This document shows, one piece after another, positions 7,377 to 23,520 of a stretch of DNA of 64,000 nucleotides (the first letter of the stretch is position 1; each line of letters opens with the position of its first letter). Under the pieces are notes generated by a model. The model saw only the letters and a program-made list of their open reading frames with translations. It was not told where the DNA came from and did not search any database. Made by a program: the position numbers and the translations under genes. This stretch comes from an uncultured Alphaproteobacteria bacterium (GTDB lineage Bacteria; Pseudomonadota; Alphaproteobacteria; RF32; CAG-239), in NCBI GenBank assembly GCA_944391515.1, contig CALXTW010000009.1, positions 1 to 64,000 on the forward strand, written 5' to 3'.

Positions 7377-8132
7377 TTATTCAGCTTCCAAAGCAGCCAT
7401 TACTTCATCAGAAAAGTCTGCATTGTGGTAAACGCGCTGAACATCATCATCATCTTCCAACGCATCAATAAATTCCAACAATTTTTGAGCTGTTTCTTTA
7501 TCGGTAATTTCTGTTTTAACGGTAGCTTTCCAATCCAAACGAGAGGCCGAAGGAGTACCGAATTCTTTTTCCAAAGTCTCGGTAACGGCATTCAAATCAT
7601 CTGGTAAAGTTTCAATTTCATGATGTTCTTCATCAGAAACCACATCATTAGCACCGGCTTCCAAAGCAGCCTCAAAAATCTTATCACTATCAGCAACGCT
7701 TGCCGGATATTGAATAAAGCCAATACGTTCAAAGTTAAAAGCAACAGAACCGGCATCACCCATCATACCGCCGCGTTTACCAAAAATAGTACGAACATTA
7801 CCAACCGTACGATTTTTGTTATCTGTCATAGCTTCAACAATAACGGCAACTTTACCCGGACCAAAACCTTCATAGCGAACGGAAACATAATCACTTCCGC
7901 CGGCAGTTTGGCTAGCCTTGGCAATAGCGCGTTCAATATTGTCTTTTGGCATACTTTCAGCACGAGCGGCTTGAATAGCCAAACGCAAACGAGGATTTTT
8001 ATCAGGTTCAGGCAAACCGCTTTTAGCGGCAATTGTAATATCTCTTGCCAATTTAGCAAAAACTTTTGCTTTTTTGGCATCTTGAGCACCTTTACGGTAC
8101 ATAATATTCTTAAACTGGGAGTGTCCAGACAT
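7377..8132 (-). CDS. yebC: YebC/PmpR-family protein (translation or transcription factor)
   Basis: The 251-residue protein starts MSGHSQFKNIMYRKGAQD, a close match to the family start M-A-G-H-S-x-W-x-N-I. It continues with the diagnostic region RLAIQAARAESMPKDNIERAI and the central YEGFGPGKVAVIVE segment. YebC proteins were first described as DNA-binding regulators; more recent work implicates family members in relieving ribosome stalling on proline-rich stretches. The conserved place upstream of ruvC is kept here. Confidence 0.95.
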   Translation of the reverse strand: MSGHSQFKNIMYRKGAQDAKKAKVFAKLARDITIAAKSGLPEPDKNPRLRLAIQAARAESMPKDNIERAIAKASQTAGGSDYVSVRYEGFGPGKVAVIVEAMTDNKNRTVGNVRTIFGKRGGMMGDAGSVAFNFERIGFIQYPASVADSDKIFEAALEAGANDVVSDEEHHEIETLPDDLNAVTETLEKEFGTPSASRLDWKATVKTEITDKETAQKLLEFIDALEDDDDVQRVYHNADFSDEVMAALEAE

Positions 8133-8229: not shown

Positions 8230-9000
8230 CTATTCAGGCATTAAAATATAATCTAACTTTTGATTATCAGCGTGCAAAACCTTAATTCCAACCCCATAAA
8301 TATCAATCATCTTTTGGTTTTTTGGAAAACTGATATTTTCAAAACGTCCGTCGGTGCCGTTAGAATTACTATAATCATAATAAGTAAACAGCATTCTATC
8401 AAGTTTAATACCGCCATATTTAATATCATAACCTTTCACAGGCTTGGTTTGCTCGGTTTTAGATGTTACAATCGGCTCAAAATACAGATTCTCTGGATAT
8501 GGAACATAATGAGGCAACATCAAAATCAAACGGTCATTTTTAACATATCCCACCTTATCATAAGGTACACCATCACCATTAATCAAAAGCACCACATTAT
8601 CCTCTTTTGCTGGAATCAATAAGAACCGTTCTCTATCAATAGTCGATTCGCCCAAGACCTGATACTTCTCTTTTTTAGAAAAAGCCATTGGCACAGATGC
8701 GCTATTCATTATGCCATCCATTGCGGGGCGAACATATTCCGACTTATAAAAATTTTTCTGATACGTTTTGACATCGGCCACAGAATAGCCCACATAAGCC
8801 GTCAAAATTTTATTTGGCTCAAAGCTACTTTCGGTAATGTACTCGGTTTTCACTAATTTTAACTCATTATCATAATAATCTATTCCATAAGAATCCCAAT
8901 AAGAAAAGATATTATTTCTTTGTGGTAAAATCGAATAGCTGTCAGCAGACAAGCATGAAGACAGCATCAAGCAACAAATTCCGAGCACTAAATTTTTCAT
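8230..9000 (-). CDS. predicted lipoprotein, unknown function
   Basis: A 256-residue protein with a lipoprotein signal: a short basic start, a hydrophobic core and the lipobox LSSC with the acylated cysteine at about 16. The mature part has no transmembrane segment and is rich in Tyr and Lys, with several strands ending near the C-terminal YILMPE. No family recognised. It is monocistronic, divergent from prmA across 90 bp. Confidence 0.7.
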   Translation of the reverse strand: MKNLVLGICCLMLSSCLSADSYSILPQRNNIFSYWDSYGIDYYDNELKLVKTEYITESSFEPNKILTAYVGYSVADVKTYQKNFYKSEYVRPAMDGIMNSASVPMAFSKKEKYQVLGESTIDRERFLLIPAKEDNVVLLINGDGVPYDKVGYVKNDRLILMLPHYVPYPENLYFEPIVTSKTEQTKPVKGYDIKYGGIKLDRMLFTYYDYSNSNGTDGRFENISFPKNQKMIDIYGVGIKVLHADNQKLDYILMPE

Positions 9001-18706: not shown

Positions 18707-18735
18707 AAGCCTTGCCCAAAGCAAGGCTTTTTTTT
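18707..18735 (+). terminator. intrinsic terminator after the HAD hydrolase gene
   Basis: AAGCCTTGC (18707-18715) and GCAAGGCTT (18721-18729) form a perfect stem, followed by a T-tract. Confidence 0.93.
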
Positions 18736-18754
18736 ATAAAGAAATTTTTTGAAC

Positions 18755-18782
18755 TTGAAAAATTGCATATTTTTGCTATAAA
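18755..18782 (+). promoter_or_regulatory. sigma70-like promoter of the 18824 gene
   Basis: TTGAAA (18755-18760), a 16-bp spacer, TATAAA (18777-18782), then 41 nt of AT-rich leader to the ATG at 18824 with no Shine-Dalgarno sequence. Confidence 0.7.
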
Positions 18783-18823
18783 AAAACAAATATTTATTTT
18801 TATTACCTAAATTATTAGAAATT

Positions 18824-19702
18824 ATGAAGCAGCAAGAAAAAGACAAGTTTTTAAGGTATTGTAAGATGAAACAATACCCAAGACAATCTATTTTGTTTGA
18901 GTATTTTCTGACAAGCCTATTTCATCAAATTGAGCAAAATCATAAGACTCAAATGACAGAGCAGTCCTTCGGCTTACCATCTATTTCGTCATTACATTTA
19001 TTTATGTATGTCGTTTTAATGAATCATTTTGAAACAAAAAAAGAATGCCCTCGTAGCATATTAACTTATTTTCCGCAATGGTTCATAGACGTAAAATCGG
19101 GATTAAATTATTATGCACGTTGGCTACTGTCTTTGGATTTGGCTCAGGCACCGCTTTTATCTTTTGTTCGCACCAATGAGGGCATATGTCACAGAACAAA
19201 ACCTTTGACGACTGATGAGGATTTAGCCATTCGCTTAAGTTTTGGAATCCCTCAAAATGTGGATTGGAACAAAGATGAATTGATTGAGCTAATGTTTTCT
19301 CAAGATGAAATTGCCGAAATTAAAAATGATTTTGATTTATCGATAAAATCGTTGTTGCAAAAAACAGAAAATTGGCCAATTGAATTTTGGAGAAATAAAA
19401 GAGCTTTTTCGGTGTTAGGTTTTTGTCCTTTTTTGACTTTGCCTTCTAATTTGTTTGAACGCATTATACAAGATTCGCACTATTTGGGGTGTGACCTTAA
19501 TTGCCATCATGATATGTTTGTCGTTATGGATAAAGTGTTGCAAAATGCAGATTTTATCAATTTGCCACCTCAAAGCCTTATGGTAAATTCACTAGAGTGC
19601 GATGATTTTATTAAAAAAATTATGCTATCTATGCAGCAAGATAATACTCTTATTTTTGATAATATGAAAACAAATATGAGTATTTATTGGAAAAAAAGCT
19701 AA
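18824..19702 (+). CDS. unknown 292-residue cytosolic protein
   Basis: I recognise no family. The protein has no signal peptide or membrane segment. It begins with an A-rich, charged stretch (MKQQEKDKF) and is mostly helical, with a tryptophan- and phenylalanine-rich middle part. Histidine-cysteine stretches such as LGCDLNCHHDMF near the C-terminus might bind metal but match no motif that I know. The AT-rich, SD-less leader and promoter spacing match other accessory genes in the window. An efficient terminator closes it as a single-gene unit. Confidence 0.65.
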   Translation: MKQQEKDKFLRYCKMKQYPRQSILFEYFLTSLFHQIEQNHKTQMTEQSFGLPSISSLHLFMYVVLMNHFETKKECPRSILTYFPQWFIDVKSGLNYYARWLLSLDLAQAPLLSFVRTNEGICHRTKPLTTDEDLAIRLSFGIPQNVDWNKDELIELMFSQDEIAEIKNDFDLSIKSLLQKTENWPIEFWRNKRAFSVLGFCPFLTLPSNLFERIIQDSHYLGCDLNCHHDMFVVMDKVLQNADFINLPPQSLMVNSLECDDFIKKIMLSMQQDNTLIFDNMKTNMSIYWKKS

Positions 19703-19728
19703 CTAGAAACTAGTATCTATTCAACGAC

Positions 19729-19760
19729 AAAAAAGCCTCCACTTTGGGAGGCTTTTTTTA
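19729..19760 (+). terminator. intrinsic terminator, same sequence as in the tRNA-Thr units
   Basis: GCCTCC/GGAGGC stem on a 6-nt loop, with six A before and seven T after. The 30-base core is identical to the terminators inside the two 202-bp units at 20461-20864. Confidence 0.93.
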
Positions 19761-19876
19761 TTTTAAATTTTCAAATCTTTCAGTACTTGTATTTAAACGG
19801 AGTAAAGAACATAAAAAGCATATAGACAATAGACAAAAAAAATGATATAAATATGTCAGAAGGAAATTATTATTGG

Positions 19877-19911
19877 CCTATTGCTATTTTCAAGCATTCA
19901 ATAGTAATAGG
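19877..19911. repeat. 12-bp inverted repeat upstream of the ankyrin-like gene
   Basis: CCTATTGCTATT (19877-19888) and AATAGTAATAGG (19900-19911) match at 11 of 12 positions, with an 11-nt loop. It is either in the leader or a promoter-proximal operator of the gene at 19966. A TTTTGTCTAT motif (minus strand, 19829-19838) lies 40 bp upstream. Confidence 0.4.
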
Positions 19912-19965
19912 TTATTATTAAAAACAAAGGGAAGAAGCTTGATTCCGCCCTCAAAAGAGATAATT

Positions 19966-20415
19966 ATGAAAACATTAAAGATTAATGAGGTATTTTATGC
20001 CTCTGCTAAGAAAATTTATGCCTCAGAGCTAAAGAAGGAATATGAACGTCCTTATATGATTAGTAGATTTCTCGAATTTGTAAGGAAGAGAGATTTCTTG
20101 AATATGAAAAAATTTCTGGATAAAGGATTCAATCCTAATCTTGTTTGCGTCCCGATAGAAAGTAGCTACAGCTACGATACTGGAATGATTACAGGTACGG
20201 AAACTCTTTATTATCGTATAATGGATATATGGGGAGATAATCCGGCCATAGCAAAATTACTGCGCTTATATGGTGCAAAAACAAGCAAAGAAATCTCTGA
20301 AGAAAGTGACAGAGAATGGAAGCGAAAACGAGAAGAAGAAGAGGCTAAAGAAACGGCAAGAAAATTAGCCGTGCACAAAAAAGAAATGGAGGAGTTAGAT
20401 AAAATATTAGGCTAA
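19966..20415 (+). CDS. small ankyrin-like protein with a coiled-coil tail
   Basis: A 149-residue protein from ATG 19966, chosen because it starts an A-rich MKTLKINEV segment and an upstream in-frame start gives an unlikely N-terminus. Residues about 32-60 (FVRKRDFLNMKKFLDKGFNPNLV) look like one ankyrin repeat, and IAKLLRLYGA near 105 looks like the helix of a second. The last 40 residues are a charged coiled coil rich in Glu and Lys. Probably a protein-binding adaptor; the partner is unknown. It ends in a terminator related to that of tRNA-Thr. Confidence 0.6.
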   Translation: MKTLKINEVFYASAKKIYASELKKEYERPYMISRFLEFVRKRDFLNMKKFLDKGFNPNLVCVPIESSYSYDTGMITGTETLYYRIMDIWGDNPAIAKLLRLYGAKTSKEISEESDREWKRKREEEEAKETARKLAVHKKEMEELDKILG

Positions 20416-20429
20416 TTTCTCCGCAATAT

Positions 20430-20458
20430 AAAAAAGCCTCCATTTTGGAGGCTTTTTT
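20430..20458 (+). terminator. intrinsic terminator shared by the ankyrin-like gene and the distal tRNA tail
   Basis: GCCTCC/GGAGGC stem with A6 and T6 flanks. It differs from the terminators inside the 202-bp units at the loop (ATTTT instead of ACTTTG). It works for the plus-strand gene and, read on the minus strand, for transcripts that pass through the tRNA units. Confidence 0.85.
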
Positions 20459-20460
20459 AA

Positions 20461-20864
20461 TGGTGCCGACTGAGGGACTTAGGGAGTTCGGTTTGTAAAC
20501 CTCGCTCATTTCGCTCACGCTCACTTGCTTGGTAACAAACTCTCACCGCTCACAACGAAAACACCGGAGCAACGGTGTTTTCTATCGGTTCGCGCCCGCT
20601 TGGGTTCAAGTCCCAAATATTAAAACCATTAAAAAAGCCTCCACTTTGGGAGGCTTTTTTAATGGTGCCGACTGAGGGACTTAGGGAGTTCGGTTTGTAA
20701 ACCTCGCTCATTTCGCTCACGCTCACTTGCTTGGTAACAAACTCTCACCGCTCACAACGAAAACACCGGAGCAACGGTGTTTTCTATCGGTTCGCGCCCG
20801 CTTGGGTTCAAGTCCCAAATATTAAAACCATTAAAAAAGCCTCCACTTTGGGAGGCTTTTTTAA
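20461..20864. repeat. two identical 202-bp tandem units, each starting with the tRNA-Thr 3' end
   Basis: Units 20461-20662 and 20663-20864 appear identical base for base. Each begins with the same 20 bases as the 3' end of the tRNA-Thr gene at 20865 (reverse complement of AAGTCCCTCAGTCGGCACCA). About 150 bp of unrelated, more GC-rich sequence follows, with two hairpins (GGTTT/AAACC; AAAACACCG/CGGTGTTTT), then an inverted T-arm-like piece (GGGTTCAAGTCCC), then a terminator. No open frame of note. The layout resembles tandem integration at a tRNA 3' end, or repeated duplication of the tRNA tail and terminator. Confidence 0.9.
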
Positions 20865-20940
20865 TGGTGCCGACTGAGGGACTTGAACCCCCGACCCACT
20901 GATTACAAATCAGTAGCTCTACCAACTGAGCTAAGTCGGC
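20865..20940 (-). tRNA. tRNA-Thr, anticodon TGT
   Basis: Minus strand, 76 nt with the CCA end encoded. The acceptor stem GCCGACT/AGTCGGC pairs fully. The D-arm is GCTCAGTTGGTAGAGC. The anticodon arm CTGATTTGTAATCAG has TGT at positions 34-36, reading ACA threonine codons. The T-arm contains GGTTCAAGTCC. A terminator follows on the minus strand. Confidence 0.97.
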
Positions 20941-23151: not shown

Positions 23152-23249
23152 ATTTTATCCTTGTGTATCCAATAAATATCAGAAAACCAATATAGAATAA
23201 ATTTCTTAATTTATACATAAAAAAACCGCCCAAAGGCGGTTTATTTTAT

Positions 23250-23446
23250 GGCTGCCTCGCCTGGATTGTAAATTCCCATTGCACAGCAATGGACCCCTTT
23301 CGCGCCGTAAGGCTCAAGCTCACATTTCGATTAGGTTCACACCTAATCTCTTGTTCGCTTTCTCCAACTATCCGCTCCGAACCTTGGTTCTCATCGGGCT
23401 ACGACACGCCATAAAAAAAACCGCCTCAAAAGGCGGCTTTTTTTTA
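23250..23446. repeat. 197-bp unit starting with the tRNA-Gln 3' end
   Basis: The first 19 bases (23250-23268) are identical to 23447-23465, the 3' end of the tRNA-Gln gene. About 145 bp of unrelated sequence follows, with two hairpins (CCATTGC/GCAATGG and ATTAGGT/ACCTAAT), an inverted T-arm-like stretch (TTGGTTC...GCCA) and a terminator at 23413-23445. A second, slightly different terminator flanks the distal copy at 23219-23249. Apart from the tRNA-related ends it shares no clear sequence with the tRNA-Thr units, but the architecture and length are the same. Confidence 0.85.
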
Positions 23447-23520
23447 TGGCTGCCTCGCCTGGATTCGAACCAAGATACCAACATCCAGAGTGTCGTGTCC
23501 TACCGTTAGACGACGAGGCA
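23447..23520 (-). tRNA. tRNA-Gln, anticodon CTG
   Basis: Minus strand, 74 nt with the CCA end encoded. The acceptor stem TGCCTCG/CGAGGCA pairs. The anticodon stem CGACA/TGTTG encloses loop CTCTGGA, with CTG at positions 34-36 (reads CAG). The T-arm contains GGTTCGAATCC. The first base T is typical of tRNA-Gln. Confidence 0.96.

Follow-up and report, generated by a model that had tools for sequence, protein, structure and literature searches.

How a tRNA gene comes to be followed by two identical 202-nt units, each closed by a copy of the 3′ end of that tRNA, is the question raised by the tRNA-Thr(TGT) locus of an uncultured alphaproteobacterium. We analysed this locus within a window of 64,000 nt, the whole stretch of DNA under study, which comprises bases 1–64000 of the 66-kb contig C9 in a draft genome of 1.67 Mb (G000, here the own genome). 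The two units lie in tandem behind an intact tRNA gene and agree letter for letter over their full length (Table 1), at a copy number of two that is taken from the assembly alone. Read on the minus strand, the order is CCA, terminator hairpin, antisense copy of the T-arm, two body hairpins and finally AAGTCCCTCAGTCGGCACCA, the 20-nt tRNA 3′ end (nt 57–76), which closes each unit. The unit terminator (..CCTCCCAAAGTGGAGG..) is the same in both copies, and its stem, ACCATTAAAAAAGCCTCC/GGAGGCTTTTTTAATGGT, reaches into the CCA. The terminator behind the last tail differs (..CCTCCAAAATGGAGG..) and is left over either from another unit or from the host site. The first-pass annotation had recognised both the identical tandem units with their exact tails and the divergent distal terminator.

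Table 1 Features of the tRNA-Thr(TGT) and tRNA-Gln(CTG) loci in the window
Feature	Positions	Strand	Remarks
tRNA-Thr(TGT), intact host gene	20865-20940	-	ARAGORN
Proximal 202-nt unit, beginning directly behind the tRNA CCA and running through the next tail copy	20663-20864	-	Identical to distal unit
Distal 202-nt unit	20461-20662	-	Identical to proximal unit
Tail copy 1 (tRNA-Thr 3′ end)	20663-20682	-	Exact 20-nt match
Tail copy 2 (tRNA-Thr 3′ end)	20461-20480	-	Exact 20-nt match
Unit terminator hairpin	20827-20868; second copy 20625-20666	-	Inverted repeats; 18-bp stem continues into tRNA CCA
Antisense copy of tRNA-Thr T-arm, GGGACTTGAACCC	20804-20816; second copy 20602-20614	-	Inverted repeats
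Body hairpin 1, GAAAACACCG..CGGTGTTTTC	20759-20784; second copy 20557-20582	-	Covarying helices 5-6 of alignment A3
Body hairpin 2, GTTTGTTACC..GGTTTACAAAC	20693-20742; second copy 20491-20540	-	Covarying helices 7-9 of alignment A3
Variant terminator after last tail	20429-20459	-	Differs from unit terminators
Displaced ancestral terminator, matching that directly behind tRNA-Thr in congener G004	19729-19761	.	Alignment with L055
tRNA-Gln(CTG), host of second case	23447-23520	-	ARAGORN
198-nt type-C unit behind tRNA-Gln(CTG)	23249-23446	-	Ends in exact 19-nt Gln tail, 23249-23267

Comparison with relatives supports the earlier suggestion that a tiny element, inserted at the 3′ end of the tRNA, brings its own terminator and displaces the original one. 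Copy number is not fixed: the own genome has two units, the congener G004 and genome G006 have none, and G045, from another genus, has a near-identical single unit. Window positions 18735–19761 align contiguously with positions 8650–7630 of the G004 locus (L055), where the tRNA ends at 7630, and the own tRNA-Thr now lies about 1.1 kb from the corresponding terminator, further than the units alone account for. This extra sequence of about 1.1 kb comprises the two units, the tail with the variant terminator and a 180-aa open reading frame (ORF). The ORF (19873–20415, plus strand) lies between the displaced terminator and the unit array, is missing at the G004 locus and has no Pfam match. At its tRNA-Thr, G006 carries a 1.9-kb integrase-less element encoding a Fic-domain protein of 489 aa (L056, 5052–7150) and no units; the direct repeat of this cargo element spans the anticodon loop into the terminator. 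A truncated Thr unit is retained in G037, where it is followed by an ORF that looks ankyrin-like by eye.

The first-pass annotation treated these units as one odd locus, a view contradicted by their occurrence across the genome and the family. Already within the window, tRNA-Gln(CTG) is followed by a unit of another body type, present in one copy in the own genome, none in G004 and two in G006. Two loci from another genus (L044 and L045) show tRNA-Gln(CTG) followed by tandem units of about 165 bp and a further body type, with a terminator and hairpin 2 and without a full tail. Across the own genome, 14 of 38 tRNA genes are followed by a repeat of their own tail 160–250 bp downstream (13 of 37 surveyed tRNAs, plus Gln-CTG, in a survey for the 18-nt own tail with ≤3 mismatches 60–450 nt downstream); unrelated tRNA tails, used as a control, matched in the same regions in 4 of 1,252 cases. 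The same survey found tail copies behind 4 of 31 tRNAs in the congener G004 and behind 0 of 31 in G070, an alphaproteobacterium of another family. Units with decayed tails also stand behind the Asp, Trp, Phe, Gly-GCC, Leu-CAG and Arg-TCT tRNAs of the own genome.

Covariance models extend this distribution. Model R1 was built from eight type-B units and R2 from thirteen units of type A, the type to which the Thr body belongs; R2 matches the Thr units at 20677–20818 (proximal) and 20475–20616 (distal). Within the family, R1 matches 49 of 50 genomes and R2 48 of 50; outside it, matches fall to 2 of 40 genomes for R1, both weak, and 1 of 40 for R2. Among the best 30 matches of each model, 25 (R1) and 19 (R2) lie ≤450 nt behind a tRNA gene on the same strand, and some of the others sit at contig ends. 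A hairpin-pattern scan for the type-A motif returned 17 stretches, in uncultured Alphaproteobacteria or proteobacteria and one of them in a record from water deer rectum; an exact-pattern scan of genome contigs for the Thr-unit loop returned no match. At the sensitivity used, neither a BLAST search of the Thr unit against phage and plasmid collections nor a search of viral contigs for body types A, C and E gave a match. On this sequence evidence, the window units are members of a large family of putative small, gene-less, folded elements behind many different tRNAs of these gut bacteria.

The duplicated piece can be delimited from 79 non-redundant tRNA/unit pairs covering 25 isoacceptors in Alpha- and Gammaproteobacteria. 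Counted back from the CCA, identity between tRNA and unit runs for 19 nt in 45 pairs and for 18 nt in 13 (58 of 79 together). In the 18-nt cases position 58 deviates (C or T) and position 59 follows the tRNA, so that the duplicated piece is nt 59–76; A58 is mostly contributed by the element, and type-B elements end in GARTA or similar. The antisense segment is matched to its host: its match to the tRNA 3′ half averages 9.2 nt for the own tRNA against 6.2 nt for other tRNA types, and the summed match was reached in 0 of 2,000 permutations. Unit size stays within 165–250 bp across dozens of tRNAs in two bacterial classes.

The bodies themselves covary as folds. For type A, 31 of 32 base pairs have changes on both sides (57 distinct sequences; score 0.579, slid controls ≤0.072), and for type B 21 of 26 (50 sequences; score 0.365, slid controls ≤0.091), counts that come from alignments fitted to the models and thus biased towards structure. 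The covariation of both types exceeds every shuffle and slid control. A folded body together with a matched antisense segment suggests that the form recognised or kept is a folded single strand, either RNA or single-stranded DNA.

Movement of such units is well supported by comparison between genomes. The clearest empty site is at tRNA-Ser(GCT): once the units are removed, 47 of the first 50 nt equal the unit-free G004 flank, displaced terminator included. With the units taken out, the own flank likewise matches the unit-free G004 flank at Thr-GGT, with a homologous terminator, and agrees with G004 at 83% over 150 nt at Gly-GCC and at 81% at Arg-CCG, where three units were removed. These empty sites could also be precise losses between tail repeats. 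At tRNA-Met (tail ..CTCGCTACCA), G004 has one unit and the own genome two, the latter beyond a 7.4-kb island. An assembly artefact as the general cause is ruled out by single units in other genomes and by several diverged tandem arrays (three units at Arg-CCG; two at the G006 Gln locus).

Further comparisons point to horizontal spread and to tail switching between tRNAs. The Thr units of the own genome and of G045 are 92.3% identical, against 75.7% for aspS. G045 and G015, which belong to one genus, share 85.8% in the Thr unit and 82.4% in aspS; partial decay of the G015 unit makes this incongruence less telling but does not touch the contrast of 92 versus 76. Bodies are also shared behind different tRNAs whose tails differ: Arg-CCG and Pro-GGG units are 87.5% identical over 112 nt of body and agree in 9 of 18 tail positions, and Met and Gly units are 84% identical in the body and agree in 8 of 18. 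At the G045 Thr locus, the tail is that of the local tRNA allele and the antisense arm fits the allele of other genomes.

The Thr units are probably two tandem copies of a non-autonomous, gene-less mobile element of about 200 bp that lives behind tRNA genes. As judged from the loci compared, an element of this class begins right after the CCA and ends with a copy of nt 59–76 of the local tRNA, which leaves the tRNA intact and pushes the old terminator outward. It brings its own terminator (in the window's family), an antisense T-arm and a conserved folded body; presence and copy number differ among congeners, and where related bodies stand behind different tRNAs the tail is in each case that of the host. 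The elements would spread, including across genera, by insertion at the T-loop/3′-end site, with the 18-nt tail duplicated or exchanged, and tandem copies would be gained and lost through recombination or slippage between tails, for which no special enzyme is needed: inverted repeats enclosed by direct repeats readily undergo precise deletion. Because the Thr copies are identical, a double insertion is indistinguishable from one insertion followed by tandem duplication, and the pair may stem from the latter. Mobilisation would take place in trans, with a site-specific recombinase as the likeliest agent, for example one of the tyrosine integrases whose islands occupy tRNA 3′ ends in the own genome.

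The first-pass annotation had stated that no integrase is present, which holds for the window, no tyrosine integrase (PF00589) having been found on its contig; elsewhere the genome does contain them. Islands headed by a tyrosine integrase of 600–601 aa (DUF6538 + PF00589) occupy the 3′ ends of tRNA-Met (L162, contig C20) and tRNA-Gln(TTG) (L165, contig C13); they measure 7–9 kb, repeat the tail at the far end and both encode the DUF6538 integrase together with a small resolvase. The Met island also has what looks by eye like a restriction-like protein, and the Gln island a 1266-aa restriction-modification-like protein. A broken integrase gene (contig C31, 54–1626) lies about 1 kb behind tRNA-Arg(CCT). 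Since the islands use the same tRNA 3′ ends, a recombinase acting on such a site is at hand. However, the repeat core of the Met island (TCGAATC..CCAAGATT) is about 27 nt long against 18 nt in the units, and no antisense T-arm is present at the island end; one integrase therefore need not serve both island and units. A search by proximity for the mobilising enzyme found no unit-like sequence within the integrase islands. We hold it possible, although doubtful, that a tyrosine integrase is responsible for moving the units.

The proposed element resembles several known classes in part. Islands and integrative and conjugative elements at tRNA sites share with it the T-loop-to-CCA site, the tail repeat at the far end, the functional tRNA and the displaced flank. 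The units differ from them in a size of about 200 bp with no recognisable protein and hence no encoded integrase, in an 18-nt rather than a longer core, and in the antisense T-arm and conserved fold; what they have of an integrative element is the direct repeat of the tRNA 3′ end. MITEs and CIMEs are likewise short or integrase-less and presumably moved in trans. The units depart from MITEs in having an 18-nt tRNA-derived tail instead of a 2–10-bp target duplication, and inverted ends that are imperfect and derived from the tRNA; no autonomous transposon was seen as a partner.

A further likeness is to the rtT repeats of E. coli tyrT (RF00391), tandem 178-bp units directly behind the tRNA that each end in its last 19 nt. 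Their layout, with an antisense T-arm stretch and a GGTTCGACT..AGCGAAAGCG..GARTA-tail body, is that of the window's family apart from the terminator, and variable copy number is common to both. R1, built from alphaproteobacterial type-B units with no E. coli sequence, picks out each of the three rtT units at one E. coli locus, with E 1.8e-8 to 1.8e-7 for a search space of 3 kb; R2 has no match at the E. coli locus (L161), which leaves type A untied to rtT. The Rfam RtT model, which scores the E. coli tyrT units at 121–134 bits, has no match in the own units up to E 5 and none in the own genome at the gathering threshold of 45 bits, and an Rfam search of nine loci gave nothing but tRNAs above threshold. 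The own units share the placement of RtT: they stand in tandem downstream of a tRNA gene, and a copy of the tRNA 3′ end closes them. They differ in the terminator between tRNA and body, which is absent from the E. coli layout, and in the many types and hosts per genome. The window's type-A unit is laid out like rtT and appears to work like it, and we class it as a variant rather than as RtT.

RtT itself occurs elsewhere in the phylum. Its Rfam model matches 46 of 398 sampled genomes, with up to 8 matches per genome, and among the matches listed all lie outside the window's class. In other Gammaproteobacteria, the RtT loci examined immediately follow Tyr, Pro, Lys, Ser and Gln tRNAs, with mostly exact tails. 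In genome G384 (L228), both members of a pair of tRNA-Ser(GGA) genes separated by about 600 bp have an RtT-like unit behind them, one scoring 41.5 bits, just under the Rfam threshold. The query rtT unit occurs in 4,584 of 5,426 complete E. coli genomes, in 1–9 copies (median 2). The sole match of an E. coli rtT unit among ‘phages’ is a 515-kb Salmonella record that is probably bacterial. Two strains of Paratyphi A are reported to differ in rtT copy number (a 175-bp VNTR) and in a 220-bp VNTR at tRNA-Gly (PMC2658671), and rtT-like similarity has been noted in some BIMEs (PMC2965389).

RtT is annotated as a stable or regulatory RNA, and the window units could likewise be a resident structured RNA, an rtT-like small RNA or tRNA-operon RNA with a regulatory or processing function in tRNA expression, for which mobility would be minor and past. 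The strong covariation is what such an RNA would show, and RtT RNAs have been detected by Northern blot beside tRNA genes in A. pleuropneumoniae (PMC4986893). Type-B units have the orientation of the tRNA in 25 of 25 cases with none reversed, and on the tRNA strand their helices hold 122 G-U against 11 A-C cells, an excess as expected for RNA, although in DNA, too, G-T is the less severe mismatch, and the sequences compared are related to one another. The absence of units from the same tRNA in congeners speaks against this account, as do the 842 of 5,426 E. coli genomes with no match to the query rtT variant and the placement of units behind a strong terminator in the window's lineage. Type-A-like bodies are moreover reversed behind Val-TAC (G026) and behind Gly-GCC and Arg-CCG in the own genome, which is hard to square with any function that depends on transcription together with the tRNA. 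We consider a resident RNA a serious but less than probable explanation of the units; function and mobility are in any case compatible.

How the tail is gained bears on a second alternative. Among 74 last copies in the arrays, 34 show similarity into or through the terminator, 26 show no extension and 14 are followed by truncated further units; duplication of the tail alone is insufficient for the first group, and in many last copies tail and terminator are shared up to a point near the T-tract. Together with the fixed 58/59 boundary, this extension leaves room for an RNA-templated route, in which the element takes the tail of the tRNA where it lands by copying it from the mature tRNA (nt 59–76) or from the primary transcript (tail plus terminator), with a reverse transcriptase or template switching as candidate means. 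The sharpness of that boundary at 18 nt over 25 isoacceptors and two classes of bacteria fits such copying, and so does the tracking of local tRNA alleles by tails, as at the G045 Thr locus with its antisense arm of another allele. Yet integrase attachment sites within tRNA genes also often start in the T-loop, and the last copies that share both tail and terminator may be what is left of lost units. We regard RNA-templated insertion as unlikely.

Leftovers of integrase islands or phages, that is, decayed attachment sites of the attL/attR or CIME-like kind, would fit the tyrosine-integrase islands at the same tRNA 3′ ends, the position of the Met island between tRNA-Met and two units, and the 1.9-kb Fic element at the G006 tRNA-Thr. 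Such scars would not have a common covarying body, an antisense arm or so narrow a size range, and the island ends show no significant body similarity, the sole strong match near an integrase being a genuine neighbouring unit; this account is very improbable. A purely local duplication, in which the tRNA 3′ end was repeated in tandem together with its flank and no mobile element took part, was the alternative raised in the first-pass annotation. Similarity between loci would then reflect nothing more than shared terminators and tRNA sequence. It fits the identical tandem Thr units, the common stem of unit and distal terminators and the copy-number changes that surely occur by unequal exchange (two, one and none at Gln-CTG), but in its simple form it is ruled out and overall is the least credible account, because it cannot produce homologous, covarying bodies that stand behind different tRNAs and in other genera and are missing behind the same tRNA in congeners.

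With a mobile element as the probable source of the Thr units, a wider reading can be put forward tentatively: rtT-like repeats in general may be widespread, tiny, RNA-structured mobile elements, diverse in body type, that can settle behind nearly every tRNA gene and there gain a copy of exactly the last 18 nt (59–76) of the tRNA, possibly copied from the tRNA itself rather than brought along by the element. In the literature covered, which did not extend to the founding rtT paper, we found rtT-like repeats nowhere described as mobile elements that switch tails, and no paper describing tail-repeat mini-elements. The rtT repeats have so far been without an explanation of their origin, and a family with empty sites in relatives makes that question testable: which agent brings a folded element of 200 bp to tRNA 3′ ends, and by what route is the tail of each new tRNA acquired? 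The lineage of the window carries such units, of many types, behind at least a third of its tRNA genes, and adds structured families absent from Rfam. Repeats flanking tRNA genes are common reference points for genomic islands, and caution is due because they can themselves be elements.
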